64,000 nt of DNA from Tachypleus tridentatus (taxonomy: Eukaryota > Arthropoda > Merostomata > Xiphosura > Limulidae), in contig NC_134830.1 of NCBI RefSeq assembly GCF_004210375.1, positions 8,990,001 through 9,054,000 of the forward strand, given 5' to 3'. Position numbers and translations under genes: made by a program. Positions 3,673-64,000 of this stretch are shown in pieces. Under the pieces are notes generated by a model. The model was not told the origin of the DNA. It ran no database searches and saw nothing but the letters and a program-made list of their open reading frames with translations. Position 1 is the first letter of the stretch; every line of letters begins with the position of its first letter.

Positions 3673-4326
3673 GGATCTGTAAAGATTTTGCTGCCCAGAT
3701 TACTTTGAATTTGCATGTGTAAGATTTACTGCTGCACATTTATTTTAATATCTACGTTTTGTTTCCGTTTGATGCATGTGACGTATATTGTTAAATGTGT
3801 ATTACACGTCTCACCTATTCTCTAATTTGTAGATGATTCTTGAGGGTAAGATTCAACAATATTCCTTTTACAAAAACACCAACATGTTTTCGAACATTGT
3901 TGAACATTATGGAATCTCACATTAAAATCAGGTGTATCAACAAAGAATAAATTTCCTGTTTATAAAGGTTCATGGATGATTTAGTTCCAGAACAGATATA
4001 AGACTCAGTATTCTTTGTAAGGTTATAAAAGTGTTGTATATAAATTATTAGGTATGATAATTATTATAAGTTGTATTGTTGTTTGTATATCAAAATATTT
4101 TTATATTAAGAAAGAAAACTGGGTTTCAATTTTGTTGGCAAATATAAATTTGATAAATAATGAAATTCAAATATGTAACATAAGTAATAATAAACTGGAG
4201 ACTTCTCCAAGATAAATTATTACATGTATGGGTATGCAAGTATTCTTATTCAAAACGAAATACATAAACACTTCAATTCTGAAAATCTTTCAGCGTCAAA
4301 ACTTTCTACAGTTTGGGATTGATCGG

Positions 4327-5506
4327 TTTGGTTTGTTTTGAATTTTGTGCAAAGATACACGAGGGCTATCTGCACTAGCCGTTCCTAGTTTAGCAGTGTA
4401 AGACTAACGGAAAGGCAGCTCGTCCTCACCATCCACTGCCAACTCTTGGGCTACACTTTTCCAACAAACAGTGGGATTGATCATCATATTACGAGGTCTG
4501 TTCAAAAAACACGCGGACTGTTTGAATTGCGCGGCTCCAGTTGATTCCAGGGGAATCCGCTTGGTGTCGCTAGGTTCGCACATATCAGCTGATTACGACG
4601 CCATTTCCCGATTGCAGATATCTTCATTTGTGCATTAACTACGCGGTTTTAAGTGAAGTGCGATTTTTTCGTTTGGCGGATTTCAGAATGAATGACCTGA
4701 AGGAGCAACGACTTGCTGTGAAATTTTGTGTTAAACTTGAAAAACCTGCGACTGAAACTTTTGCTATGCTTAACACGGCTTACGGTGATGTTGCTATGAA
4801 GCGTACGGCATGTTTCAAGTGGCATGAACGTTTTATGGATGGTCGACAGTCCATTGAAGATGATGAGCGTCCTGGACGTCCTTCCACGTCAACTGACGAC
4901 CCACACGTCGACAAAATCAACACCCTGGTGCGGGCAAATCGACGTCTGACTGTCAGGGAGCTTGCTGAAGAGTGTGGGATATCAGTTGGATCTTGTTACG
5001 AGATTTTGACCGAAAAATTGAAAATGCACCGCGTTGCTGCGAAATTTGTGCCTCAGAACTCGTGAGTTTTTGGCCAAACACTCGATCACCGTTCTTCCCC
5101 ACCCTCCCTTCTCACCTGACGTTGCTCCTTGCGATTTTTTCTTGTTCCCCAAACTCAAAAGATCCTTGAAAGGAAGAAGATTTGAGATGATTCCCGAGAT
5201 TAAGGCAAATGCGACGAAGAAGCTGGTGGACATTACAAAAAAGCGTACCAGGACTGTTTCAACAAGTGAAAACACCGTTGGGATAAGTGTGTGCGTTGGG
5301 GAGGAGAGTACTTTGAAGGGGTCCCAGACCTGTAACTTCTCAATAAAGTACATTTTTTTTTATGACGTTAGTTCGCGTATTTTTTGAACATCCCTCGTAT
5401 AATTCCCCCACAGATGAAACAGTGAACATGTTTGGTGTGACGAAGATTCAAACCAGTGATCCTTGGATTACAAGTCGAATGCTTTAATCATCTGGCCATG
5501 CCAGGC
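4327..5506 (-). mobile_element. tRNA-derived SINE (family A) split by a mariner
   Basis: The tail half (4327-4489, with ACGAGGGCTATCTGCACTAG) and the tRNA-like head (5400-5506, ending GGCCATGCCAGGC read on plus) are two parts of one minus-strand SINE. They are interrupted by the mariner at 4492-5397. The same SINE family occurs elsewhere in the window at 20939, 30198, 35590 and 36813, and without the mariner at 5754. Confidence 0.85.
4492..5397 (+). mobile_element. Internally deleted mariner transposon, left-arm copy
   Basis: The element has terminal inverted repeats of about 28 bp (left CGAGGTCTGTTCAAAAAACA; right end reads CGAGGGATGTTCAAAAAATA in reverse complement) and is flanked by TA on both sides. 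The reading frame beginning at 4688 (MNDLKEQRLAVKF) encodes the N-terminal helix-turn-helix region of a mariner transposase, including a second HTH around LTVRELAEECGISVGSCYEI. It then jumps to the C-terminal part, FSPDVAPCDFFLFPKLK, which holds the third catalytic Asp. The first two catalytic Asp residues and the intervening region are absent, so the element is about 0.9 kb instead of about 1.3 kb and cannot be autonomous. Confidence 0.9.
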
Positions 5507-5753
5507 TTCTCATATTGACTGCATAGATTTACTAAGCAAGTGACAAAATGGTCTTCCAAAACAAAGTGAACAAGATGTTTAGCTTAGGTATCCACTATAA
5601 ATTGTTATGGATAATCTTATTGTTAAATTGATATTATTTTTGTACATAGAAAATTCATGATAAAGCTGCATTTCAATTTTTTTTAATAATTAGTTGTGAA
5701 TTTTGTACAAGTCTTAATTAGAAGCAAAGCTATTAATTATTATTTTGATACAA

Positions 5754-5973
5754 GTTTGTTTGAAATTCTGTGCAAAGATACACGAGGGCTATCTGTGCTA
5801 GCTGTCCATAATTTAGCAGTGCAAGACTAGAAGGAAAGAAACTAGCCATCACCACCCACTGCCAACTCTTCAACTACTCTTTTAACAATAAATAGTGGGA
5901 TTGACTGTCACATTATAATTCCCCATGGCTGAAAAGGTGAGAATGTTTGTTGTAATGGGGGGATTCAATCCAT
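5754..5973 (-). mobile_element. tRNA-derived SINE (family A), head-truncated
   Basis: The tail and body (ACGAGGGCTATCTGTGCTAG, CACCACCCACTGCCAACTCT, GGGATTGACTGTCACATTAT) match the other family A copies. The tRNA-like head is missing or unrecognisable beyond 5973. The same truncated copy is present in the right arm at 52110-52327. Confidence 0.85.
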
Positions 5974-6460
5974 TTTATACAAGTAAATTATCAATGTATA
6001 TAAAGACTAATTTATTTATTGATTAATTAATATATGACATTGGTGGATTAAAAAATGAAAACCAATTTGTTTGTTTAATGTCAGGAACTTCATCAAAAAT
6101 CATGTGAAACTGGTGACATGTTGTCAAACAGTAATCGCAGGCTTCTTATGTTTACAGTTAACCAGTCAATCTCCTCACCTTGATTATGATGTTTTATTTT
6201 ATAACAAGACATGTAACTCATGATACCTAATTGCCTTTTATGAGACATGTTTTTATATGAATTGAATGATCAAAACACGCACCTGACCGTTTGGAATCGG
6301 ATATAGTCAGAACTGTGTTCTTACTGTGCAAACCTTTCCTAACTTAATATGCATTTTTATTATATAAAAAATATTTATGGGAAAAATAATGATCATTAAT
6401 CTTATTAATAAAACATGGAAAATACTGTTATAAGCTGTATTTTTGAAGTTCTAATTTGTT

Positions 6461-7216
6461 TGTTTGAGGGAGATGTAGGTTGTAATGGTGACCTAAACTT
6501 GAAAGGCTTAGAACACCTAGAAAGTTCGAAAGGAATTTGACGTCAGATTTCCTAATACATTCTACGGGTAGATTATAAATACACGGTTTGATGAAACATT
6601 AAAATGATATTTAAGGAGATCATGAGGTCTTCCTTGTCAATGCAGCAAATAAGTCAGTTTTCATTTCAACTACAGAGTTGAGGTGTTTTTTTTTAAAAAC
6701 ATTTGCATACAATTTATTATACACCCCAAAACAAAAGGTAACAGTGTCATTTGTACACTTGGCCTACAAGTTACCAGTGTTTAAAGTTGTATAGGTTAAG
6801 AAACAAATAAACTAACTCATCCTTTGCACCAGATAATTAAAAAGAACCTACCAACAAAATAATAGTGCTACAAGAGTGGTGCCAGAAGTGGTATTATTTT
6901 GGTGAAAAACAAAGCCTTGACTAAACATTAACTTTCATTCAAGATAACCACAATCACAAAAAGATAGTGCATTTAAATAAGAAAAAGAATGAATAAATTA
7001 GGGGAGAGAAGAAATAGAAACTAAAAAAAAAATCAGAAAAATAGTGTTAGAAATTAGAATATAGATAATTAATACAAAGATTAACACAAGAGAAATTTAA
7101 ATTAACAAAAAGACATCTTAAAATCTTTTAGAACTTTCTAGTTGTTCTAGGTCTATCTTATTAAATATTTTGATCTTAACATGACATCATATAACCCACA
7201 TCTCCTTATAACAGCC
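6461..7216. mobile_element. Fossil LTR-retrotransposon pieces (Gypsy-like LTR), left arm
   Basis: A plus-strand LTR-like segment spans about 6461-6872. It has a TATA-like GATTATAAATACACGG, an AATAAA-type signal, and at 6877 a primer-binding-site-like TGGTGCCAGAAGTGG. A shorter, related LTR-like segment lies in the opposite orientation at about 7124-7216. No internal coding region remains. This is an old, broken relic, present in both arms of the inverted duplication. Confidence 0.5.
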
Positions 7217-7965
7217 AAACAAATTACAGTACCGAAAATATAGCTTATAAGAATATGTGTATGGTAAATAAAATGTATACATCATCATTTAAAACTTTTT
7301 TAATAAAAACATGATTAACGGAGGCTTTTTCACTATGTAAATTTTCGTTAATAGAAGAACGATCTGAAGTTTCCCTAAATTATATTTAAGTTAGTTTATC
7401 ACATCTTACCAGTGTGATATTTTATAGAAGCTAGCACTGCCAATAATTTACTAGTTCCAACATAATCTAGGATGAAGCACATTATGGTGGATAAGGTATT
7501 TTTCCAAAACAAGAAAATATACTTTTGCAATAATTTCAGGTGACAATATATACAGTACACACAATATTTAATGTAAAAGAAAGTTACCTTGAAGTTACTG
7601 GAAGAAAAGAAATGATTAAAGGCAGTTAATCATTACTCAAAGTAACAATAAAAGTATCCACTGGAATTAGAAATATTCTGGACAATTTTAGAAGGAAATC
7701 TGTAAACAAGAAACTAGTTTCCATGATCAATATTGTTATAAAAAATTACAATGAAGAAGAATTTGGCAGTATTCAAAACTTTCTTTTTTAAAGAAATTCA
7801 TTAGGTAAGGTCAAGTTATTTATTTTATTAATACATTTAGTTTAATATCACAGTGACCTCTAACAAGATTTATTGTGATAACAGATTGTTTTATATTTAA
7901 TATTGTAGTATCCCATGATATAACATTTTTAAGACGTTTTTGGTGTAAAATCACAAAAAGCAGGT

Positions 7966-8782: not shown

Positions 8783-9788
8783 GTAAAGACATTACTCAAA
8801 AAAGGGATGACTTTATGTTCCCTTGTGTAAAGACATTACTCAAAAGGGATGACTTTATGTTCCCTTGTGTAAAGACATTACTCAAAAGGGATGACTTTAT
8901 GTTCCCTTGTGTAAAGACATTACTCAAAAGGGATGACTTTATGTTCCCTTGTGTAAAGACATTACTCAAAAGGGATGACTTTATGTTCCCTTGTGTAAAG
9001 ACATTACTCAAAAGGGATGACTTTATGTTCCCTTGTGTAAAGACATTACTCAAAGGGATGACTTTATGTTCCCTTGTGTAAAGACATTACTCATTAAAAG
9101 GGATGACTTTATGTTCCCTTGTGTAAAGACATTACTCAAAGGGATGACTTTATGTTCCCTTGTGTAAAGACATTACTCAAAGGGATGACTTTATGTTCCC
9201 TTGTGTAAAGACATTACTCAAAGGGATGACTTTATGTTCCCTTGTGTAAAGACATTACTCAAAGGGATGACTTTATGTTCCCTTGTGTAAAGACATTACT
9301 CAAAGGGATGACTTTATGTTCCCTTGTGTAAAGACATTACTCAAAGGGATGACTTTATGTTCCCTTGTGTAAAGACATTACTCAAAAGGGATGACTTTAT
9401 GTTCCCTTGTGTAAAGACATTACTCAAAAGGGATGACTTTATGTTCCCTTGTGTAAAGACATTACTCAAAAGGGATGACTTTATGTTCCCTTGTGTAAAG
9501 ACATTACTCAAAAGGGATGACTTTATGTTCCCTTGTGTAAAGACATTACTCAAAAGGGATGACTTTATGTTCCCTTGTGTAAAGACATTACTCAAAAGGG
9601 ATGACTTTATGTTCCCTTGTGTAAAGACATTACTCAAAAGGGATGACTTTATGTTCCCTTGTGTAAAGACATTACTCAAAAGGGATGACTTTATGTTCCC
9701 TTGTGTAAAGACATTACTCAAAAGGGATGACTTTATGTTCCCTTGTGTAAAGACATTACTCAAAAGGGATGACTTTATGTTCCCTTGT
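8783..9788. repeat. Minisatellite, unit about 42 bp, roughly 24 copies
   Basis: This is a head-to-tail array of a unit that contains GTAAAGACATTACTCAAAAG followed by GGATGACTTTATGTTCCCTTGT. Copies are nearly identical. They fall into blocks that differ by one A: CAAAAGGG units at both ends (42 bp) and CAAAGGG units in the middle (41 bp). One copy near 9090 reads ATTAAAAGGG. Because 42 is a multiple of 3, both strands stay open by chance, giving a 14-residue periodic translation that is not taken as coding. Confidence 0.97.
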
Positions 9789-35508: not shown

Positions 35509-35580
35509 TTCCATGTGGTCTAGTGATTAGGATACCTAGCTTTCACCTAGGAGGCCCGGGTTTAATTCGCAGGATGGGAA
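35509..35580 (+). pseudogene. tRNA-Glu(TTC)-like relic
   Basis: The 72-base sequence folds as a tRNA. The D-arm GTCTAGTGATTAGGAT resembles the animal tRNA-Glu A-box. The anticodon stem CCTAG/CTAGG is perfect around loop CTTTCAC (anticodon TTC), and the variable region leads to GGCCCGGG. The T-arm is decayed (CCGGG against CGCAG, two mismatches; loop TTTAATT instead of TTCGATT) and the acceptor has one mismatch. A T5 run follows at 35583. It is probably a pseudogene, and it directly precedes a SINE head at 35590. Confidence 0.6.
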
Positions 35581-50109: not shown

Positions 50110-51184
50110 CCTTCAGTACCTATTTTGTGATTCTACATCAGAAATGTCTTCAAATGTTATATCATTGGATACTACAATATTAAATATAAAACAATCTGTT
50201 ATCACAATAAATCTTGTTAGAGGTCACTGTGATATTAAACTAAATGTATTAATAAAATAAATAACTTGACCTTACCTAATGAATTTCTTTAAAAAAGAAA
50301 GTTTTGAATACTGCCAAATTCTTCTTCATTGTAATTTTTTATAACAATATTGATCATGGAAACTAGTTTCTTGTTTACAGATTTCCTTCTAAAATTGTCC
50401 AGAATATTTCTAATTCCAGTGGATACTTTTATTGTTACTTTGAGTAATGATTAACTGCCTTTAATCATTTCTTTTCTTCTACTAACTTCAAGGTAACTTT
50501 CTTTTACATTAAATATTGTGTGTACTGTATATATTGTCACCTGAAATTATTGCAAAAGTATATTTTCTTGTTTTGGAAAAATACCTTATCCACCATAATG
50601 TGCTTCATCCTAGATTATGTTGGAACTAGTAAATTATTGGCAGTGCTAGCTTCTATAAAATATCACACTGGTAAGATGTGATAAACTAACTTGAATATAA
50701 TTCAGGGAAACTTCAGATCGTTCTTCTATTAACGAAAATTTACATAGTGAAAAAGCCTCCGTTAATCATGTTTTTATTAAAAAAGTTTTAAATGATGATG
50801 TATACATTTTATTTACCATACACATATTCTTATAAGCTATATTTTCGGTACTGTAATTTGTTTGGCTGTTATAAGGAGATGTGGGTTATATGATGTCATG
50901 TTAAGATCAAAATATTTAATAAGATAGACCTAGAACAACTAGAAAGTTCTAAAAGATTTTAAGATGTCTTTTTGTTAATTTAAATTTCTGTTGTGTTAAT
51001 CTTTGTATTAATTATCTATATTCTAATTTCTAACACTATTTTCTGATTTTTTTTTTAGTTTCTATTTCTTCTCTCCCCTAATTTATTCATTCTTTTTCTT
51101 ATTTAATTGCACTATCTTTTTGTGATTGTGGTTATCTTGAATGAAAGTTAATGTTTAGTCAAGGCTTTGTTTTTCACCAAAATA

Positions 51185-51612
51185 ATACCACTTCTGGCAC
51201 CACTCTTGTAGCACTATTCTTTTGTTGGTAGGTTCTTTTTTAATTATCTGGTGCAAAGGATGAGTTAGTTTATTTGTTTCTTAACCTATACAAGTTTAAA
51301 CACTGGTAACTTGTAGGCCAAGTGTACAAATGACACTGTTACCTTTTGTTTTGGGGTGTATAATAAATTGTATGCAAATGTTTTTTAAAAAAAACACCTC
51401 AACTCTGTAGTTGAAATGAAAACTGACTTATTTGCTGCATTGACAAGGAAGACCTCATGATCTCCTTAAATATCATTTTAATGTTTCATCAAACCGTGTA
51501 TTTATAATCTACCCGTAGAATGTATTAGGAAATCTGACGTCAAATTCCTTTCGAACTTTCTAGGTGTTCTAAGCCTTTCAAGTTTAGGTCACCATTACAA
51601 CCTACATCTCCC
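51185..51612 (-). mobile_element. Fossil LTR (Gypsy-like), right-arm copy
   Basis: Inverted counterpart of the left-arm LTR piece, including the primer-binding-site-like CCACTTCTGGCACCA at its left side (read on plus). Old and broken; no coding interior. Confidence 0.5.
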
Positions 51613-52109
51613 TCAAACAAACAAATTAGAACTTCAAAAATACAGCTTATAACAGTATTTTCCATGTTTTATTAATAAGATTAATGATCATTATTTTTCC
51701 CATAAATATTTTTTATATAATAAAAATGCATATTAAGTTAGGAAAGGTTTGCACAGTAAGAACACAGTTCTGACTATATCCGATTCCAAACGGTCAGGTG
51801 CGTGTTTTGATCATTCAATTCATATAAAAACATGTCTCATAAAAGGCAATTAGGTATCATGAGTTACATGTCTTGTTATAAAATAAAACATCATAATCAA
51901 GATGAGGAGATTGACTGGTTAACTGTAAACATAAGAAGCCTGCGATTACTGTTTGACAACATGTCACCAGTTTCACATGATTTTTTGATGAAGTTCCTGA
52001 CATTAAACAAACAAATTGGTTTTCATTTTTTAATCCACCAATGTCATATATTAATTAATCAATAAATAAATTAGTCTTTATATACATTGATAATTTACTT
52101 GTATAAAAT

Positions 52110-52327
52110 GGATTGAATCCCCCATCACAACAAACATTCTCACCTTTTCAGCCATGGGGAATTATAATGTGACAGTCAATCCCACTATTTATTGTTAAAA
52201 GAGTAGTTGAAGAGTTGGCAGTGGGTGGTGATGGCTAGTTTCTTTCCTTCTAGTCTTGCACTGCTAAATTATGGACAGCTAGCACAGATAGCCCTCGTGT
52301 ATCTTTGCACAGAATTTCAAACAAACT
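52110..52327 (+). mobile_element. tRNA-derived SINE (family A), head-truncated, right-arm copy
   Basis: Inverted counterpart of 5754-5973, with the same truncation point and an identical block order. Confidence 0.85.
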
Positions 52328-52573
52328 TGTATCAAAATAATAATTAATAGCTTTGCTTCTAATTAAGACTTGTACAAAATTCACAACTAATTATTAAAAA
52401 AAATTGAAATGCAGCTTTATCATGAATTTTCTATGTACAAAAATAATATCAATTTAACAATAAGATTACCCATAACAATTTATAGTGGATACCTGAGCTA
52501 AACATCTTGTTCACTTTGTTTTGGAAGACCATTTTGTCACTTGCTTAGTAAATCTATGCAGTCAATATGAGAA

Positions 52574-53757
52574 GCCTGGCATGGCCAGATGATTAAGGCA
52601 TTCGAATTGTAATCCAAGGATCACTGGTTTGAATCTTCGTCATACCAAACATGTTCACTGTTTCATCTGTAGGGGAATTATACGAGGGATGTTCAAAAAA
52701 TACGCGAACTAACGTCATAAAAAAAAAAGTACTTTATTGAGAAGTTACAGGTCTGGGACCCCTTCAAAGTACTCTCCTCCCCAACGCACACACTTATCCC
52801 AACGGTGTTTTCACTTGTTGAAACAGTCCTGGTACGCTTCTTTTGTAATGTCCACCAGCTTTTTCGTCGCATTTGCCTTAATCTCGGGAATCGTCTCAAA
52901 TCTTCTTCCTTTCAAGAATCTTTTGAGTTTGGGGAACAAGAAAAAATCGCAAGGAGCAACGTCAGGTGAGAAGGGAGGGTGGGGAAGAACGGTGATCGAG
53001 TGTTTGGCCAAAAACTTACGAGTTCTGAGGCACAAATTTCGCAGCAACGCGGTGCATTTTCAATTTTTCGGTCAAAATCTCGTAACAAGATCCAACTGAT
53101 ATCCCACACTCTTCAGCAAGCTCCCTGACAGTCAGACGTCGATTTGCCCGCACCAGGGTGTTGATTTTGTCGACGTGTGGGTCGTCAGTTGACGTGGAAG
53201 GACGTCCAGGACGCTCATCATCTTCAATGGACTGTCGACTATCCTTAAAACGTTCATGCCACTTGAAACATGCCGTACGCTTCACAGCAACATCACCGTA
53301 AGCCGTGTTAAGCATAGCAAAAGTTTCAGTCGCAGGTTTTTCAAGTTTAACACAAAATTTCACAGCAAGTCGTTGCTCCTTCAGGTCATTCATTCTGAAA
53401 TCCGCCAAACGAAAAAATCGCACTTCACTTAAAACCGCGTAGTTAATGCACAAATGAAGATATCTGCAATCGGGAAATGGCGTCGTAATCAGCTGATATG
53501 TGCGAACCTAGCGACACCAAGCGGATTCCCCTGGAATCAACTGGAGCCGCGCAATTCAAACAGTCCGCGTGTTTTTTGAACAGACCTCGTAATATGATGA
53601 TCAATCCCACTGTTTGTTGGAAAAGTGTAGCCCAAGAGTTGGCGGTGGCTGGTCATGACGAGCTGCCTTTCCGTTAGTCTTACACTGCTGAACTAGGAAC
53701 GGCTAGTGCAGATAATTCTCGTGTATCTTTGCACAAAATTCAAAACAAACCAAACCA
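52574..53757 (+). mobile_element. tRNA-derived SINE (family A) split by a mariner, right-arm copy
   Basis: The head (GCCTGGCATGGCCAGATGAT, 52574-52680) and the body plus tail (53592-53757) flank the mariner at 52683-53589. Inverted counterpart of 4327-5506. Confidence 0.85.
52683..53589 (-). mobile_element. Internally deleted mariner transposon, right-arm copy
   Basis: It has the same ends, the same TA flanks and the same internal deletion as the left-arm copy. The frame from 53393 downwards (MNDLKEQRLAVKF) encodes the two HTH regions. The C-terminal DVAPCDFFLFPKLK follows directly, without the first two catalytic Asp residues. It differs from the left copy at a few residues (for example MKRTACF against VKRTACF, and FMDGRQ against FKDSRQ). 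Confidence 0.9.
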
Positions 53758-54412
53758 ATCAATCTCTAACTGTAGAAAGTTTTGACGCTGAAAGATTTTC
53801 AGAATTGAAGTGTTTGTGTATTTCGTTTTGAATAAGAATACTTGCATACCCATACATGTAATAATTTATCTTGGAGGAGTCTCCAGTTTATTATTACTTA
53901 TGTTACATATTTGAATTTCATTATTTATCAAATTTCTATTTGCCAACAAAATTGAAACCCAGTTTTCTTTCTTCATATAAAAGTATTTTGATATACAAAC
54001 AACAATACAATTTATAATAATTATCATACCTAATAATTTATATACAACACTTTTATAACTTAAAAGAATACTGAGTCTTATATCTGTTCTGGAACTAAAT
54101 CATCCATGAACCTTTATGAACAGGAAATTTATTATTTGTTGACACACCTAGTTTTAATGTGAGATTCCATGATGTTCAACAATGTTCGAAAACATGCTAA
54201 TGTTTTTGTAAAAGGAATATTGTTGAATCTTAACCTTCAAGAATCATCTACATATTAGAGAATAGGCAAGACGTGTAATACACATTTAACAATATACGTC
54301 ACATGCATCAAACGGAAACAAAACGTAGATATTAAAATAAATGTGCAGCAGTAAATTTTACAATATACATGCACATTCAAAGTAATCTGGTCAGCAAAAT
54401 CCTTACAGATCC

Positions 54413-54972
54413 GAAGAAGCCCTTGTACTTTCATTTGAAAATTCTGGCATAAAAATTTACAAAATCCAGAGAGCCCTGATGCTCCAAAAATAAATTAATC
54501 ACAGATACATAAAGGTGTGAACTGTAAAATAAAGTTTTATAAACAAAGATTTTCCTTATGATTTTACTCAACTAGACAATGATAATTTAATTTTGTCATT
54601 TTTATGCACATGAAGCCTAATTGCACTTCGTATACTTGGGTACAGTAACAAATCATTCATTACATGGAGAACATCCTAGTAAATATATTAATTATCAACA
54701 CTGGAATGAAATTTTATATATGTGTATATATTTTAATATTTATTTACTTGTAAGGTGAATTTTGAATTCTGCAAATATTTTGTGCTCAATTCGTGATCAA
54801 CAGCATACAAAGAAAATAGCTATTTGTAAGTTGTACTTTCAATATTTTAATTTTGGTGTTAATTGGAAGGGGTATTACTTTTATGTTCTAGAAAGTGGGA
54901 ATAATTACAATAACATTTACACTCAAGGTTATATTTTAAATGCCAAATGTATTTTTTTTTCTGCTGTGAGAA
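54413..54972. other. Spacer between the right arm and the U5 array
   Basis: AT-rich; no gene or repeat recognised. Confidence 0.5.
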
Positions 54973-55334
54973 TCACCTGCAACATCAAATTAAATTTTGC
55001 GTCTAACAAGATAATTAGTCTCACTCTGATATAACGTAACCGGAGTTTTAATGCGCTCTTCCAAAAATATACCGTTCCCTCTCTTTTCGGACGGTAAGAG
55101 CGAACTTGTCCACATTGTTATCGTTTCGAGAAGTTTGGTACGTTTTCCACAATACAATTGACATTCTTATTTAAAAACAAAAACAATGTAATAAAATGGT
55201 AGAACTTAAAAGTTTGATCACATTTTAAGAAGTATGAAGGTGAAATCGATATGACGATGTCTAATTCGTGTAACATCCACGAAACGTTTAGAAATTGTTA
55301 GTATAAGTAGAGGCGTTTGGGAAAAGTAACTTCT

Positions 55335-58300
55335 CGATAGAAAAACTAACAAATCTCGATAGAAGATTTCTTTAAATCTGACATTAATGAAACCATTTTA
55401 TGTAATATACACTTTAACAACCGGCTAACTATTCCGATTCTAGCCATATATTGCTCACCAACCAAAGATATCGACATTAACTTCCTTCAAAAATGTGTTA
55501 ATCGTAAACCCAAACCAATTATTATTGGAGATTTTAATTCACCGCACACAGAATTAAGGGGTAACAGAGACACACGCAGAGGATCGTGCATAAAAATTTT
55601 TATCTCTAGCAATAAAATGCACTTAATTAATGACAATACACCTACACACTTCTCAGCCGCTAACGGCTCATACGATGTACTCGATTTCATCATTGCACCC
55701 AAGGACATGGTTAACAGAATATCTAACTTTAAAGTGCATGATGAAATCACCAGTGACCACTTCCCCATGTCATGTATGATTCACCCGCGCCACCCTGCTG
55801 TGGCGTACGTGACTCCTTCCGCATACACCTACACTGAAACAGACTGGCTCACTTTTAATGCCTCTCTGGACTCATACCTACCCCATCCAATCGAACATGT
55901 AAATAACAAAGCAGAACTAGACAACTATGTTGATCAAATTACAGAAGCCATAAAGAAAGCCATAAAAAACACAATTCCTAAATCAAAAAAAGAAAACAAT
56001 CACTTATTCAATCGACTCTAACACCAGAAATTCACGCACTAATAATCAAACGCAAACAATTAAGACGAACACACTACATCACACGCGATCCACACATTAA
56101 AACAGAAATCAATAGAACAAATACAAAAATTAAACAAGAAATTAAAAAAGTTAGAGAAAACAATTGGCATAACTTCTGTAAAAACTTAGAAAAAACCAAG
56201 AACAATCCAAAAGAATTCTGGAAAAAAATTCAAGAGTATTGCTTCAGACAAAAACACAAATCACATGCTACAACATATCACACACAACAATAAAATCGCA
56301 AGGACGGACGAAGAGAAAGCTGACTATTACAAATCCTCTTTTAGCGATTTAAACTCAGTAAATTTCGACACACAACACCAACACCATGTCAACAACTACA
56401 TAAATACAAACCAAGCTTCATTCTCACCAGGATTTCCCGGCGAGACACTAGAAGCATACTCAAATTCAATCAATAGAAAAATAACCACAACCGAACTAAA
56501 GATTAATATCAAAAACTTGAAGAACACTTCCCCCGGACATGACCAAATACCAAATATTATTCTCAAAAAAAGTTCCACTCTCCTACTACAACACCTCACA
56601 AACATCATGAACATTTCACTAGCGACCGGGTATTACCCTGACACGTGGAAAAAAGCCATCATAACAACGATCCCCAAGAAACAAACTAACAGAACAAATC
56701 CAGATAATTTCCGCCCCATCAGTCTGTTAAGCTGCCTTGACAAACTGATGGAGAGAATAATCTCCAACCATCTCCTCCATTTTTGCGAATCGAATAACAT
56801 CCTTCCAGAATCTCAAAATGCCTCCAGAAAAAATAGACAAACAACAGATCACCTCACACGACTCACCGAATCAATCTACAAAGCTTACAACAACAACCAA
56901 GTAACCATCGGGGTATTCCTAGATGTCAAAAAAGCATTCGACAGCGTTTGGCACAGCGCCATCATATACAAACTAAATCACCTACAAATAAATCCCACGA
57001 TAGTCAAATGGATTTCAAATTTCTTAACCAATAGAACAGCACAAGTAAAAGTCAATAAAACTATATCCAAATTATTTAATATAACGGCAGGAGTGCCCCA
57101 AGGATCAGTCCTCTCTCCACTTCTATACATAATTTTCGTCAGTGACATACCTTTTCCAAATCTAACATACACACACAATTCACAATACGCAGACGACATC
57201 GCAATCTGGAGCACCTCCAGAAACCCAGTAATGGCCATGTCTCGCGTACAAGAATCACTAAACAACGTCTCAACATGGAGCAACAAGTGGAGGGTCGTGT
57301 TAAATCCGACAAAAACACAAGCAATCACCTTCTATAGAAAACTAAAGAAGCAAAGAAAAAATCTAGAAAAAATAAAACTATCACTTGGAAACACAACCAT
57401 TAACATGAGCAAAAACATCACATTCCTTGGCGTCACTTTCGACATAAAAGTAACATGGAAAAAATACATAAACAATATACACTCATCAATCAGAAAAAGG
57501 ATTTCATATCTAAAGACTATAACTGGTAAACAATCGAAATGCGCACCGAACACCATAATACAAATATACAAGGCTTACATCTGTCCACTAATAGAGTACG
57601 GATGTCAAGTAACATACAATATGTCAAACAACACACTCCAAAAAATCCAAGTACAACAAAACAGAATATTAAAATCCGCATTCAGTTTACCATCATTTAC
57701 GCCAACAAATTATCTACACCAAATTAGTAATTTACCAACTATAAGAGATAGAATAACAGAACTTTCTCTCAAATATTATCTAAAAGCAGAAAATAGAAAC
57801 AAACTAACGGCATCACTACACAAATTATCAAGTGCACCAACAAAATACATATCACCTTACAACATATTTCAAGAATCACAATCCACTCAACAAAGAATCT
57901 AAATAAATAAAATCCATGTTATTAACATGAATTCCTTTTTTTCAGGTACAGGGCACACGACAGGCAAAACTTTCGGCGCCTGTCGTGTGAAAGTGGGTTT
58001 TCTCGGGGCACTCCCGTTTCCCCCCACATCAAAATCTTCAGGCATTGGATTTCTAGATCCCAACCCAGGCAACTTTTGTGCCAGACCCTGAATCGGGCCG
58101 TTTGATTTGATCTGCATTTGAATGAATTACATTCATGTTCACATCTGCCTAACTTTTTCCTTTCGGGACAGGTCCCGGCCTTTCTTTCCACTGCTGCCTT
58201 TGCCTCCACCCAAAACAACATTTAGAGAGACATTCTCCACCTAAAAAGTCAAGAATAATAACGATAAGTAATTTATTAAAATAATTACAAAAAAAAACGC

Positions 58301-58437
58301 CACTTAATCTTAATAACAATCCACGAAAGGGGACGAAGAGGAACTACAAAGTTTTTGAAAACCTTAGTTGGAGAGAGAACCCTTCTGATTTCTCTCTCTC
58401 TAAACTGAACCCCTGCCACGTTAGTTTAGTTTAGTTT
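55335..58437 (+). mobile_element. Jockey-like LINE, 5'-truncated, inserted at the U5 gene start
   Basis: It begins inside the endonuclease domain (LAIYCSPTKDI, IIIGDFNSP, then SDHFPM near 55758). It continues into a reverse transcriptase (56265-57902) with DNFRPISLLSCLDKLMERII, FLDVKKAFDSVWH, GVPQGSVLSPLLY and the catalytic QYADDIAIW. The segment about 56015-56270 reads in a different frame, so ORF2 carries two compensating frame changes; otherwise it is well kept, suggesting a young insertion. The 3' UTR has a 12-bp perfect hairpin (57954-57965 with 57978-57989), the GTGGGTTTT...CCCCCCAC block, and a (TTTAG)n tail. A 10-bp target duplication, AGTAACTTCT, flanks it (55325-55334 and 58438-58447). 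Confidence 0.92.
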
Positions 58438-58447
58438 AGTAACTTCT

Positions 58448-58565
58448 ATGCTCAGGTTTCCCTTCAATTCGTATTAATCTTTCGCCTTTTACTAAAGATT
58501 ACCGTGGAGGGGAACATTACAAAGAGCCCATAGGCGAATTTTTCAAGTCTCACTTTTGTGAGACA
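58448..58565 (+). ncRNA. U5: U5 spliceosomal snRNA, copy 1 (canonical loop, separated from its promoter region)
   Basis: U5 holds the 5' and 3' exon ends together in the spliceosome through its invariant loop 1. Here the loop region CGCCTTTTACTAAAGAT equals the conserved U5 sequence. The flanking stem GTTTCCCTTC / GGAGGGGAAC pairs over 10 bp. An Sm site GAATTTTTC and the 3' hairpin TCTCAC-TTTT-GTGAGA follow; length about 118 nt (human about 116). A 3'-box-like GAATAAAAATAGAC lies at 58575-58588. The 5' end is set by alignment to ATACTCTGG of vertebrate U5 (here ATGCTCAGG). The LINE's right target duplication ends at 58447, so the normal 5' flank is now 3.1 kb away and expression from its own promoter is doubtful. 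Confidence 0.9.
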
Positions 58566-61019
58566 ACAATCTATGAATAAAAATAGACTTGAAGAAGCGA
58601 CTCTCCGGTCCACTTTTGTGGTGCATGAATTTTAGTGCGAATTGTCGCTCTTAGTATCATGTTTTGTTTCTCGATGAAATATTGGGAAAAGGAGAAACAT
58701 TTTTAATGTTAAAACATCTATCAGCCATTTCTTGTTTGCTTATTAGCATGAATTATTAGCGTTTTCGTAGAATAATTATAGGGAAAAATCAGTTAGATTA
58801 ACAACTTGTACTATATTGGAAAGCCAGTGCTTTTTCGTAATACTACGTTCCAATAATGACTTCACGAACAAATGTATAACCTGACATTGTTGTTAGTCTA
58901 TCTGCTGAAAGTATGAAACGAACAGACAACAAAACGTTTGTTGATTTCTTAGTTTAGAGTCTGCGTTTGTTAAAGCGGTTGTCTTTAATTGAACACGTTG
59001 CTGATAGAAAATTGCTAATTCGAAAACGATACGTGTTTAAAACTGAATCGATATTCGTTCTATGTTTTTATGCACATGGATCTCACACTGTGTGTCTGAA
59101 GCTTGTTTTAGACTTATTATACTCGCTAGTCACTTGTGAGATGTCACTGCACTTGGATTTCTTGTACCCACCGCGTCACTAAAAAATCGTAATGGAAGAC
59201 CCTAATGGAACTACCATTCTATCTGGATAAATGCATTTAGGCTTTCATGACTCCGTCTGTTTCGAGAACTAGGCCGTAACGTGACACACACACACTGAGT
59301 TTTTAACGTAAGCTACGTTTCAGTAATATATACTTGGCATCAGCGAGGAGAAATATGCGCATATTTCTCTTTCGGTGCATGAAAAGTTTAAACCTGTTGA
59401 ACATAATTGTCGTTGTGTTGTTTCAGTAAAACTGCAATATTCCGCGCAATAAATATCTGGGTTTTACAGATGTAAGAAAGGCACAACACTGTAATTTTAA
59501 ATAAATACATAATTAAAATGAAACAGTGGATTTTTATATGTTTTCCGTTCGTAAAATTTCTGCATCGTCTTTCTTTCTAGAAAGTGTGATTTTAAAAATT
59601 CGTATTTGAAATTGGTCTATTTATTTTGAATAACACGAAAATATTTTGTATTATATTGTGAGAGAATTATACACTGCTCGGAAGAAGGGAGCTCTTCTTT
59701 GAACTGTAATTCCCTGAAAAGTGCTCCACTTTGCAAAACTTCACTTGTCTGCAAAAATGGGATTTTCTTTGCGTTAAATTGCCTTGAGAAATCGACGCAT
59801 AGTTGCGTCTACAATGTATGGAAAAAAAGTGTCTCGGTTTTGCTCTCTGTTATGACTGCATTGGAAGAAAAGAGGGACATTGCGATAAAATACTGCGACT
59901 ACAGAGATAAGAAATGCGAATTCTCCACTGTCCTAAGTTGCTCGTATGCAAATCATGACACATAATAGCTCAACCAACAGTTTAAGAAGAAACTGGTTAC
60001 TTTCCTTATTGGTTAGACAAGAAGATGGCTTTTATTATTCTATTGTAGTTTTCTTTGAGAGGTATTTTAATGCATTTTCTTTTCAGAGTGACATTTTATA
60101 AGTATTTGTTTCGTATCTCTTCTAGTTAATTTAGTTAAAATCGTTTATTACTCAAAATACCGTTGTACTTTAATTTAAGAAACTTCGTCAACACATGTAC
60201 AAGATAATAGACAGTTAACGTGGACTTTGAATCGTTAAAACGTGAGCACACGTTCAAGTACTTTCGTGTCACGTGCACAGCAAAGAATAACGGAACACAA
60301 GCAAGAGTGGTAGCGGCCAAATACTAAAGATAATGACTTATGAAAACAGCATTCGAAGATACTTCTGTTTCTAGATTTCTCTTTGTAAGATTTAGGTTAA
60401 CGGCAGACGTTGTACACACCAAGCGATGTCCAACAAGGATCGCGCATTTTCGGACAAACTCGAACCCCTAAACTGTGATTAGACTTTGAGAAATCTTGGA
60501 CGTTGTTCTAACTAACGCCGTTTTAGGAGCATACGGGAAGAAATAAATACGTTTCATACAGTTGTTTAGTTATTGATGTTCCTGGTTATCATAAGATTAG
60601 AAAGTAAATTCCCAGATATTTGAGAAATTTACGCTTCAGTTATACAACTAGTTTTTCGATCAGAGTTAAATGGATTACTCCCGATTACATATAGCTTTTT
60701 TACTCTTAACTTTAAAGGCTATAATGCAGCAGAAACACCTAGAACATCAGATAAAATTTTGCGTCTAACAAGACAGTTAGTCTCACTCTAATATAACGTA
60801 ACCGGAGTTTTAATGCGCTCTTCTAAAAATACATCGTTCTCTCCCTTTTCGGACGATAAGGGCGAACTTGTCCACATTGTTATCGTTTCGAGAAGTTTGG
60901 TACGTTTTCTACAATACAATTGACATTCTTATTTAAAAAACAAAACAATGTAATAAAATGGTAGAACTTAAAAGTTTGATCACATTTTAAGAAGTATGAA
61001 GGTGAAATCTACATGACGA

Positions 61020-61096
61020 TGTCTAATTCGTGTAACACCCACGAAACGTTTAGAAATTGTTTGTATAAGTAGAGGCGTTTGGGAAAAGTAACTTCA
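61020..61096 (+). promoter_or_regulatory. Candidate snRNA promoter region of U5 copy 2
   Basis: The 75 bases before the U5 start contain TAATTCGTGTAACACCC (about -73 to -57) and GTATAAGTAG with TATAAG at about -33. Position suggests a PSE-like element plus a TATA-like box. Because the units are near-identical tandem copies, conservation between them is not evidence of function. The same flank in unit 1 lies at 55250-55334, on the far side of the LINE. Confidence 0.35.
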
Positions 61097-61212
61097 ATGC
61101 TCAGGTTTCCCTTCAATTCGTATTAATCTTTCGCCTTTACTAAAGATTACCGTGGAGGGAACATTACAATGAGCCTATAGGCGAATTTTTGAAGTCTCAC
61201 TTTTGTGAGACA
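61097..61212 (+). ncRNA. U5: U5 spliceosomal snRNA-like, copy 2 (short loop 1)
   Basis: Same architecture as copy 1: 5' end ATGCTCAGG, Sm site GAATTTTTG, 3' hairpin TCTCAC-TTTT-GTGAGA, and a 3'-box-like GGATAAAAATAGAC at 61222-61235. Loop 1 reads CGCCTTTACTAAAG, one T fewer than the near-invariant U5 loop, and the right stem strand is GGAGGGAAC, one base shorter than in copy 1. The 5' flank is intact, with TATAAG at 61064-61069 (about -33). It may be a variant, a pseudogene, or a homopolymer error in the assembly. Confidence 0.85.
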
Positions 61213-63846
61213 ACAATCTATGGATAAAAATAGACTTGAAGAAGCGACTCTCAGGTCCACTTTTGTGGTGCATTAATTTTAGTGCGAGTTGTCGCTCTTA
61301 GTTTTGTTTCTCGATGAAATATTGGGTATAAGAGAAACGTTTTAATGTTAAAACATCTGTTAGCCATTTCTTGTTTGCTTTCGATAATGATGGGGCATGA
61401 CAGCTATTTTACAGCTGACTGAAATAAATAAATTCTGGGAAATGTCCAACAGAGGCAGTCGGTAAATTCCTCTATGAGCCAATCAAAGTTAAGATCATTT
61501 GTGAAATGAATTATTAGCGTTTTCGTAGAATAATTATAGGGAAAAATCAGTTAGATTAACAACTTGTACTATATTGGAAAGCCAGTGCTTTTTTCGTAAT
61601 ACTACGTTCCAATAATGACTTCACGAACAAATGTATAACCTGACATTGTTGTTAGTCTATCTGCTGAAAGTATGAAACGAACAGACAACAAAACGTTTGT
61701 TGATTTCTTAGTTTAGAGTCTGCGTTTGTTAAAGCGGTTGTCTTTAATTGAACACGTTGCTGATAGAAAATTGCTAATTCGAAAACGATACGTGTTTAAA
61801 ACTGAATCGATATTCGTTCTATGTTTTTATGCACATGGATCTCACACTGTGTGTCTGAAGCTTGTTTTAGACTTATTATACTCGCTAGTCACTTGTGAGA
61901 TGTCACTGCACTTGGATTTCTTGTACCCACCGCGTCACTAAAAATCGTAATGGAAGACCCTAATGGAACTACCATTCTATCTCGATAAATGCATTTAGGC
62001 TTTCAAGACTCCGTCTGTTTAACTAGGCCGTAACGTACACACTGAGTTTTAACGTAAGCTACGTTTCAGTAATATATACTTGGCATCAGCGAGGAGAAAT
62101 ATGCGCATATTTCTCTTTCTGTGCATGAAAAGTTTAAACCTGTTGAACATAATTGTCGTTGTGTTGTTTCAGTAAAACTGCAATATTCCGCGCAATAAAT
62201 ATCTGGGTTTTACAGATGTAAGAAAGGCACAACACTGTAATTTTAAATAAATACATAATTAAAATGAAACAGTGGATTTTTTATATGTTTTCCGTTCGTA
62301 AAATTTCTGCATCGTCTTTCTTTCTAGAAAGTGTGATTTTAAAAATTCGTATTTGAAATTGGTCTATTTATTTTGAATAACACGAAAATATTTTGTATTA
62401 TATTGTGAGAGAATTATACACTGCTCGGAAGAAGGGAGCTCTTCTTTGAACTGTAATTCCCTGAAAAAGTGCTCCACTTTGCAAAAACTTCACTTGTCTG
62501 CAAAAATGGGATTTTCTTTGCGTTAAATTGCCTTGAGAAATCGACGCATAGTTGCGTCTACAATGTATGGAAAAAAAGTGTCTCGGTTTTGCTCTCTGTT
62601 ATGACTGCATTGGAAGAAAAGAGGGACATTGCGATAAAATACTGCGACTACAGAGATAAGAAATGCGAATTCTCCACTGTCCTAAGTTGCTCGTATGCAA
62701 ATCATGACACATAATAGCTCAACCAACAGTTTAAGAAGAAACTGGTTACTTTCCTTATTGGTTAGACAAGAAGATGGCTTGTATTATTCTATTGTAGTTT
62801 TCTTTGAGAGGTATTTTAATGCATTTTCTTTTCAGAGTGACATTTTTATAAGTATTTGTTTCGTATCTCTTCTAGTTAATTTAGTTAAAATCGTTTATTA
62901 CTCAAAATACCGTTGTACTTTAATTTAAGAAACTTCGTCAACACATGTACAAGATAATAGACAGTTAACGTGGACTTTGAATCGTTAAAACGTGAGCACA
63001 CGTTCAAGTACTTTCGTGTCACGTGCACAGCAAAGAATAACGGAACACAAGCAAGAGTGGTAGCGGCCAAATACTAAAGATAATGACTTATGAAAACAGC
63101 ATTCGAAGATACTTCTGTTTCTAGATTTCTCTTTGTAAGATTTAGGTTAACGGCAGACGTTGTACACACCAAGCGATGTCCAACAAGGATCGCGCATTTT
63201 CGGACAAACTCGAACCCCTAAACTGTGATTAGACTTTGAGAAATCTTGGACGTTGTTCTAACTAACGCCGTTTCAGGAGCATACGGGAAGAAATAAATAC
63301 GTTTCATACAGTTGTTTAGTTATTGATGTTCCTGGTTATCATAAGATTAGAAAGTAAATTCCCAGATATTTGAGAAATTTACGCTTCAGTTATACAACTA
63401 GTTTTTCGATCAGAGTTAAATGGATTACTCCCGATTACATATAGCTTTTTACTCTTAACTTTAAAGGCTATAATGCAGCAGAAACACCTAGAACATCAGA
63501 TAAAATTTTGCGTCTAACAAGACAGTTAGTCTCACTCTAATATAACGTAACCGGAGTTTTAATGCGCTCTTCTAAAAATACATCGTTCTCTCCCTTTTCG
63601 GACGATAAGGGCGAACTTGTCCACATTGTTATCGTTTCGAGAAGTTTGGTACGTTTTCTACAATACAATTGACATTCTTATTTAAACACAAAAACAATGT
63701 AATAAAAATGGTAGAACTTAAAAGTTTGATCACATTTTAAGAAGTATGAAGGTGAAATCTACATGACGATGTCTAATTCGTGTAACACCCACGAAACGTT
63801 TAGAAATTGTTTGTATAAGTAGAGGCGTTTGGGAAAAGTAACTTCA

Positions 63847-63963
63847 ATGCTCAGGTTTCCCTTCAATTCGTATTAATCTTTCGCCTTTACTAAAGATTAC
63901 CGTGGAGGGAAACATTACAATGAGCCTATAGGCGAATTTTTGAAGTCTCACTTTTGTGAGACA
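63847..63963 (+). ncRNA. U5: U5 spliceosomal snRNA-like, copy 3 (short loop 1)
   Basis: It has the same short loop, CGCCTTTACTAAAG, as copy 2. The right stem strand is GGAGGGAAAC, which restores full pairing with GTTTCCCTTC. Sm site, 3' hairpin and 3'-box-like sequence (63972-63986) are present. The 5' flank is like that of copy 2. The window ends shortly after. Confidence 0.85.
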
Positions 63964-64000
63964 ACAATCTATGGATAAAAATAGACTTGAAGAAGCGACT

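Follow-up and report, generated by a model that had tools for sequence, protein, structure and literature searches.

In plan, the closest described system to the U5 array analysed here is the human RNU2 locus, where a 6.1-kb unit carrying the U2 snRNA gene is present in 10-20 copies, and up to more than 30 (PMC3795722). As here, one snRNA gene per multi-kilobase unit is repeated in nearly perfect tandem; the human gene is however U2, whereas here it is U5, with two adjacent types of unit. In fish (Plectorhinchus and others), U5 genes are also in tandem and have a PSE and a 3' box, comparable to the candidate elements described below, but there U5 and U2 lie together in one unit of ~1 kb, whereas here U5 stands alone in units of 2.75 or 4.27 kb (PMC3464664). 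The morabine grasshoppers provide an arthropod case, with U5 among the tandem families U1, U2, U5 and U6; these were, as far as described, built up from sequencing reads starting from seed sequences (PMC7754599), whereas a chromosomal anatomy is given here. Other reports describe snRNA genes linked to 5S (with U1, U2 and U5 in fish), U3 linked to U5 in Euglena, and snRNA genes that evolve in concert (PMC8167085, PMC2784804 and PMC4291461).

The locus is a genuine U5 tandem array, of a kind of RNA gene array that is already known. In open-licence literature, surveyed through titles and abstract openings and through part of the longest set of hits, no account of a chelicerate tandem array built of U5 alone was recognised. 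Such an array had been presented as worth documenting in an earlier note on this DNA, and U5 is indeed the sole RNA family above cut-off in the units scanned, but U5 is not exceptional in this genome, because U1, U2, U4 and U6 also form arrays of their own. Searches of the 2.17-Gb assembly (205 contigs) place U2 copies at a period of ~1.66 kb on C2 and C3, U1 copies at ~4.49 kb on C11 and C19, U4 copies at ~5.23 kb (partly 7.36 kb) on C13 and U6 copies at ~0.73 kb on C10, and dispersed copies also exist for each of the four. As the best candidates were scored, the counts for these four genes are lower bounds; no scored copy lies inside the U5 arrays.

Anatomy of the array and of its left edge

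The window, the whole 64-kb stretch of DNA analysed, is C6:8990001-9054000, and a window coordinate is the C6 coordinate minus 8990000. At Rfam gathering cut-offs, the U5 model (RF00020) matches it three times, always on the + strand and over model positions 1-117 of 117, with 83.6-96.8 bits for a cut-off of 40; the sole further RNA match in the window is a weak tRNA at 35509. Copy 1 (58448-58564, 96.8 bits) has a full loop 1 and, in alignment, three substitutions relative to the other type-A copies. Copy 2 (61097-61211, 83.6 bits) has a loop 1 that reads CGCCUUUAC, one U short, and a stem G run that is also one short, and copy 3 (63847-63962, 90.6 bits) has a loop 1 that is one U short. The starts of the three copies are spaced by 2649 and 2750 bases. 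The Sm site, AAUUUUUG (AAUUUUUC in copy 1), and the 3' terminal hairpin, GUCUCACUUUUGUGAGAC, both align to the RF00020 model. The earlier identification of three U5 genes with Sm site, 3' hairpin and 3'-box-like element is upheld; loop 1, on which it also relied, reads one U short in copies 2 and 3.

The array begins at ~54969, close to the 54973 proposed earlier, with a partial type-A unit (54969-55334, + strand, unit positions ~2384-2749; 94% identical to units 2 and 3 by blastn over 365-366 bp) that is the promoter side of copy 1, cut off from its gene. When C6:9044001-9164000 is examined, the array is seen to run to ~C6:9140555, ~86.6 kb beyond the window. The earlier note was right that U5 keeps a constant position within a long repeated unit and that the repeats extend beyond the window. 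The array contains 28 U5 copies, all on the + strand, one per unit. The first block is composed of 19 copies in type-A units of ~2.75 kb, two of them with inserts, as exemplified by the complete unit of 2750 bp at 61097-63846 (+ strand, U5 start to U5 start); its last copy, at C6:9098835, ends at the Sm site. The second block is composed of 9 copies in type-B units of ~4.27 kb. A gap of 500 N (C6:9100566-9101065) separates the two blocks, and we count it against our main reading. The 2.75-kb unit reported earlier is that of the type-A block, and not that of the second block; moreover, a retrotransposon of 3.1 kb splits the first type-A unit.

Types A and B have in common the gene with ~240 bp from its start (mostly 85-86% identity) and ~900 bp upstream (73-74%), and the remaining spacer of either gives no match to the other. 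Under permissive Rfam settings, no second RNA gene reaches its cut-off in window 58400-64000 or in one 10-kb type-B stretch; the four non-U5 matches in the latter are all far below their own cut-offs. Linkage of U5 with another RNA gene, considered as a candidate, is rejected, as only U5 is above cut-off in the units scanned.

Taken together, these results make it very probable that the end of the window is the left edge of one tandem U5 snRNA array, an A block followed by a B block, whose units would be independently transcribed and homogenised, with a first copy that is probably silent, and that the two other arrays of the assembly (see below) are misplaced contigs. The array copies are most likely working U5 genes with common snRNA-type flanking elements, homogenised by recombination.

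The silence of copy 1 would result from the element that splits the first unit. At 55335-58437 (+ strand) lies a 5'-truncated non-LTR retrotransposon with a (TTTAG)n tail, recognised by its Pfam domains and its target duplication; its endonuclease and reverse-transcriptase frames are broken apart (PF14529, E 1.4e-17; PF00078, E 9.2e-42; PF03372 only over profile positions 124-225 of 225). Identical 10-bp copies of AGTAACTTCT flank the 3.1-kb insert at 55325-55334 and 58438-58447, and the second ends at the base just before copy 1. The promoter side of unit 1 therefore stops at 55334 and its gene begins at 58448, whereas in units 2 and 3 the promoter is joined to the gene, a difference that the earlier note missed. 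With its promoter displaced 3.1 kb upstream, copy 1 is probably not expressed. It carries three substitutions in the gene, versus no more than one in any other full-length type-A copy, run-length changes aside, which is what a silent edge copy would be expected to show.

The insertion lies exactly at the start of U5, which had suggested a U5-specific retrotransposon. This idea is rejected: among the best 40 of 1318 candidates for the 3' end of the element, 39 lie elsewhere and one is the insert itself. None of these 39 scored matches reaches more than 3 bases into U5, no U5 is present at the four other element copies whose 3' flanks were examined, and only one of the 28 array-1 units has the full insert. 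As 39 of the 40 scored copies lie elsewhere and no other array-1 unit has the full insert, the element at copy 1 most likely belongs to a dispersed family and landed there by chance. Each type-B unit also contains an inverted 150-bp piece, ~80% similar to the retrotransposon segment over positions 2619-2767 of the latter (e.g., C6:9106207-9106353).

Other repeats are present to the left of the array. An inverted repeat (window 3673-7958 and 50123-54412; 4.3 kb, 98.2% identical, 42-kb spacer) stops ~550 bp before the U5 array; both arms contain the same 163-aa frame, which in the left arm matches the helix-turn-helix domain of the Mos1 transposase. A 42-bp tandem repeat of 24 copies, with 98% matches, occupies window 8783-9788. 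As regards the organism, the attribution to a chelicerate-type genome agrees with two hemocyanin exons: 2 of 9 genomic places compared with solved structures match chelicerate hemocyanins, with 163-190 bits versus at most 95 bits for the others. The matched structures are presumably those of Limulus and Androctonus.

A probable single locus and its assembled pieces

An exact U5-stem pattern is found at 59 sites genome-wide, versus 0 for its reversed control. These sites are distributed between array 1 (28), a second array at C6 10.95-11.0 Mb (13), a third at C14 34.8 Mb (12) and dispersed places (6). The model or BLAST adds three more to array 2 (10984708, 10988981 and 11001772), which brings the three arrays to at least 56 U5 copies, the contigs ending inside the array. 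The continuous reading of arrays 2 and 3 covered them outside C6:10956001-10976000 and C14:34828001-34867000.

Arrays 2 and 3 are bounded by gaps of 500 N. Array 2 lies between gaps 10950024-10950523 and 11005608-11006107, both within a unit. The C14 array begins inside a unit at gap 34823086-34823585, and its contig stops at gap 34877028-34877527, 4.7 kb past a junction shared with array 1: both end at unit position 1402 and continue into a like flank, 97.2% identical over the 4.75 kb up to the gap. In array 2, type A joins type B without any N (~10982389-10982408), in the same order as in array 1. From the gap-bounded contigs, the common right junction and flank on C14 and the gap-free A-to-B junction of array 2, we infer one locus seen in two haplotypes. 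The C6 10.95-Mb and C14 34.8-Mb arrays would thus most likely be misplaced contigs of the other haplotype of the array-1 locus.

Alternatively, the three assembled arrays could be truly separate loci arisen by segmental duplication, with U5 in at least three arrays on two chromosomes. Their placement is in agreement with this, as two of them are ~1.9 Mb apart on C6 and one is on C14, and so is the common right flank, whose 97.2% identity is below the 99% and more found among B units. Against it, arrays 2 and 3 both start in mid-unit exactly where a 500-N gap stops, the end of array 2 is of the same kind, and the array-3 contig reaches a gap 4.7 kb past the junction. Beyond the gaps, the stretches read (~4-6 kb each) give no match to the array-1 flanks. 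A weaker argument in the same direction comes from a search with window 51500-54900, in which the 40 best-scoring of 21397 candidates include no second long copy other than the inverted arm of this segment. We therefore consider separate loci unlikely and retain a single locus represented by misplaced contigs. The refutation foreseen in the earlier note, that the units are an assembly duplication, probably applies to these two arrays and not to the units of the window.

We also considered whether the left flank is duplicated at arrays 2 and 3, and reject this, as nothing in the 4 kb preceding array 2 or in the 5 kb preceding array 3 matches the window. The U1, U2, U4 and U6 arrays are each seen at two or more places (C11/C19, C2/C3, C13 and C10, respectively), and the paired ones may be haplotype contigs like those of U5. 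Outside the arrays, C6:13.244 Mb and C6:14.008 Mb carry diverged U5 copies that are near-identical over the stretch compared and have a different upstream region; they are possibly another haplotype duplicate or a pair of U5 pseudogenes. Two older type-B-like U5 units lie 11.8 kb apart at C6:14.054 and 14.066 Mb; they have kept promoter-like elements and the gene, and are 83.8 and 86.1% identical to type B over ~1.25 kb upstream.

Loop 1, flanking elements and homogeneity

The loop-1 U run was read in 39 array copies, i.e., the 36 fitting the search pattern plus 10959362, 10984708 and 10988981. It contains four U in 28 of them, three in 10 and five in 1. The exact loop 1, GCCUUUUAC, is thus present in 28 of 39 copies, copy 1 included, and the missing U of copies 2 and 3 is possibly an assembly error.

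Even where two adjacent B units have no substitution between them, 13 and 15 homopolymer indels set them apart, and in both blocks deviation rises with run length (0.2-1.1% at 3, ~6% at 4, 15-18.5% at 5, longer runs being few and irregular). Both features are the mark of consensus error, and the shortened loops are probably homopolymer errors of this kind. In type A, the short-loop units also have more homopolymer deviations elsewhere (mean 9.0, n = 4, versus 3.8, n = 13). A functional loop-1 subfamily, proposed as a candidate, was for this reason judged to be probably homopolymer error; it stays a rival, since part of the evidence points in the opposite direction. The short-loop copies (CGCCUUUAC) could indeed be real gene variants, spread across both blocks by conversion. 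Three U are read in 10 of 39 array copies and five in 1 of 39. Moreover, the short loop accompanies a short stem G run (7/9 versus 4/27 among 36 copies; Fisher p 0.001), 8 of 25 aligned copies have a deviating loop run, compared to ~6% for all runs of four, and the type-B copies with a short loop carry no more homopolymer deviations elsewhere than the others. On balance, real variants appear rather improbable. If they were real, a quarter of the copies would be doubtful genes, and this is counted against the main reading. A broader reading, in which all five major snRNAs lie mainly in separate single-gene arrays, U5 has two spacer types as adjacent homogeneous blocks and the short-loop copies are real and expressed, would mean that a U5 whose loop 1 lacks one base exists in nature; as a whole it is very unlikely. 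Consensus error thus remains our preferred explanation of the short loops.

Candidate promoter elements are present upstream of copies 2 and 3, on the + strand. ACACC, a candidate upstream half of a proximal sequence element, lies at 61035-61039 (-62 of copy 2) and, judged from sequence, at the same offset before copy 3 (63785-63789); U1, U5 and one U4 have it similarly placed, and U2 has ACGCC there. ATAAG, a candidate TATA-like half, lies at 61065-61069 (-32 of copy 2), with a like offset, within 5, in U1 and U2, and ATATA or ACATA in U4. Most U1, U2, U4 and U5 upstream regions examined have ACACC or a near relative at ~-60 and ATAAG, ATATA or ACATA at ~-30. Neither ACACC nor ATAAG is found directly upstream of copy 1, and the diverged copy at C6:14.008 Mb is without both the ~-60 and the ~-30 elements. 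Two sets of four representatives choose like offsets, -64/-33 and -63/-33, and an equal score is reached by 31/500 and 26/500 dinucleotide shuffles, which is borderline; single-block tests give 11/300 and 50/300 for the array set, 47/300 and 41/300 for the other. When types A and B and the two C6:14-Mb copies are compared, conservation close upstream of the gene does not clearly exceed that of more distant regions. Because of the shuffles that match their score, common snRNA promoter elements near -60 and -30 are suggestive only.

Downstream, the 3'-box-like AAAAATAGA begins 15 nt past copy 2 (61226-61234) and follows copy 3 (63977-63985), both on the + strand and both fitting AAARNNAGA, which we take to be the 3'-box consensus. 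This pattern is present after types A and B and copy 1 and, overall, in 10 of the 18 snRNA downstream flanks examined, versus 1.54 expected from shuffles; an earlier count on 14 of the same flanks also gave 10. Its absence from the 8 other flanks, including both U4 array representatives, is counted against the main reading.

The units are head-to-tail on the same strand. Those that align as a single piece share 98.5-98.8% identity with unit 2; identity drops to as little as 92% in the array-edge pieces and in pieces of the two insert-bearing units. Neighbouring complete type-A units (n = 17) differ by 1-23 substitutions per ~2750 bases and neighbouring type-B units (n = 8) by 0-8 per ~4265 bases, with homopolymer-length indels making up 96 of 240 and 92 of 131 of the differences, respectively. 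This low divergence fits a recently homogenised array. Among 17 type-A copies, one substitution falls in the U5 part versus 110 elsewhere, five times fewer per site per copy (0.05% versus 0.25%). Among 8 type-B units, one falls in U5 versus 30 in the spacer, at about equal rates (0.11% versus 0.09%); the U5 part of these 8 units thus shows no excess constraint, which is also counted against the main reading.

The promoterless copy 1, the C6:9098835 copy cut at its Sm site and the altered runs of some copies might suggest that these repeats are a satellite or an expansion of pseudogenes, with the functional U5 genes elsewhere. This is very unlikely, given that conservation is highest in the gene (from +28 to +107, one A, one B and the C6:14.05/14.07-Mb copies agree in 78 of 80 columns) and that 4 of the 6 dispersed copies found are diverged or fragmentary.

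As a mechanism for the array of working genes, unequal exchange and gene conversion would keep the units alike inside each block. Each unit would be transcribed separately by the snRNA promoter system, with an upstream element at ~-60, a TATA-like element at ~-30 and a 3' box 10-15 nt past the gene, and the many copies would supply U5 to the spliceosome.

These results carry a warning: chromosome-scale assemblies split long arrays, and the pieces can land on other scaffolds, so that copy and locus numbers counted from assemblies are not to be trusted as given. The locus is nevertheless a readable edge of an snRNA macro-array, with two unit types alike only at the gene and its neighbourhood, a decaying promoterless edge copy and a gap-free A-B junction, features that make it useful for understanding how RNA-gene arrays stay uniform.
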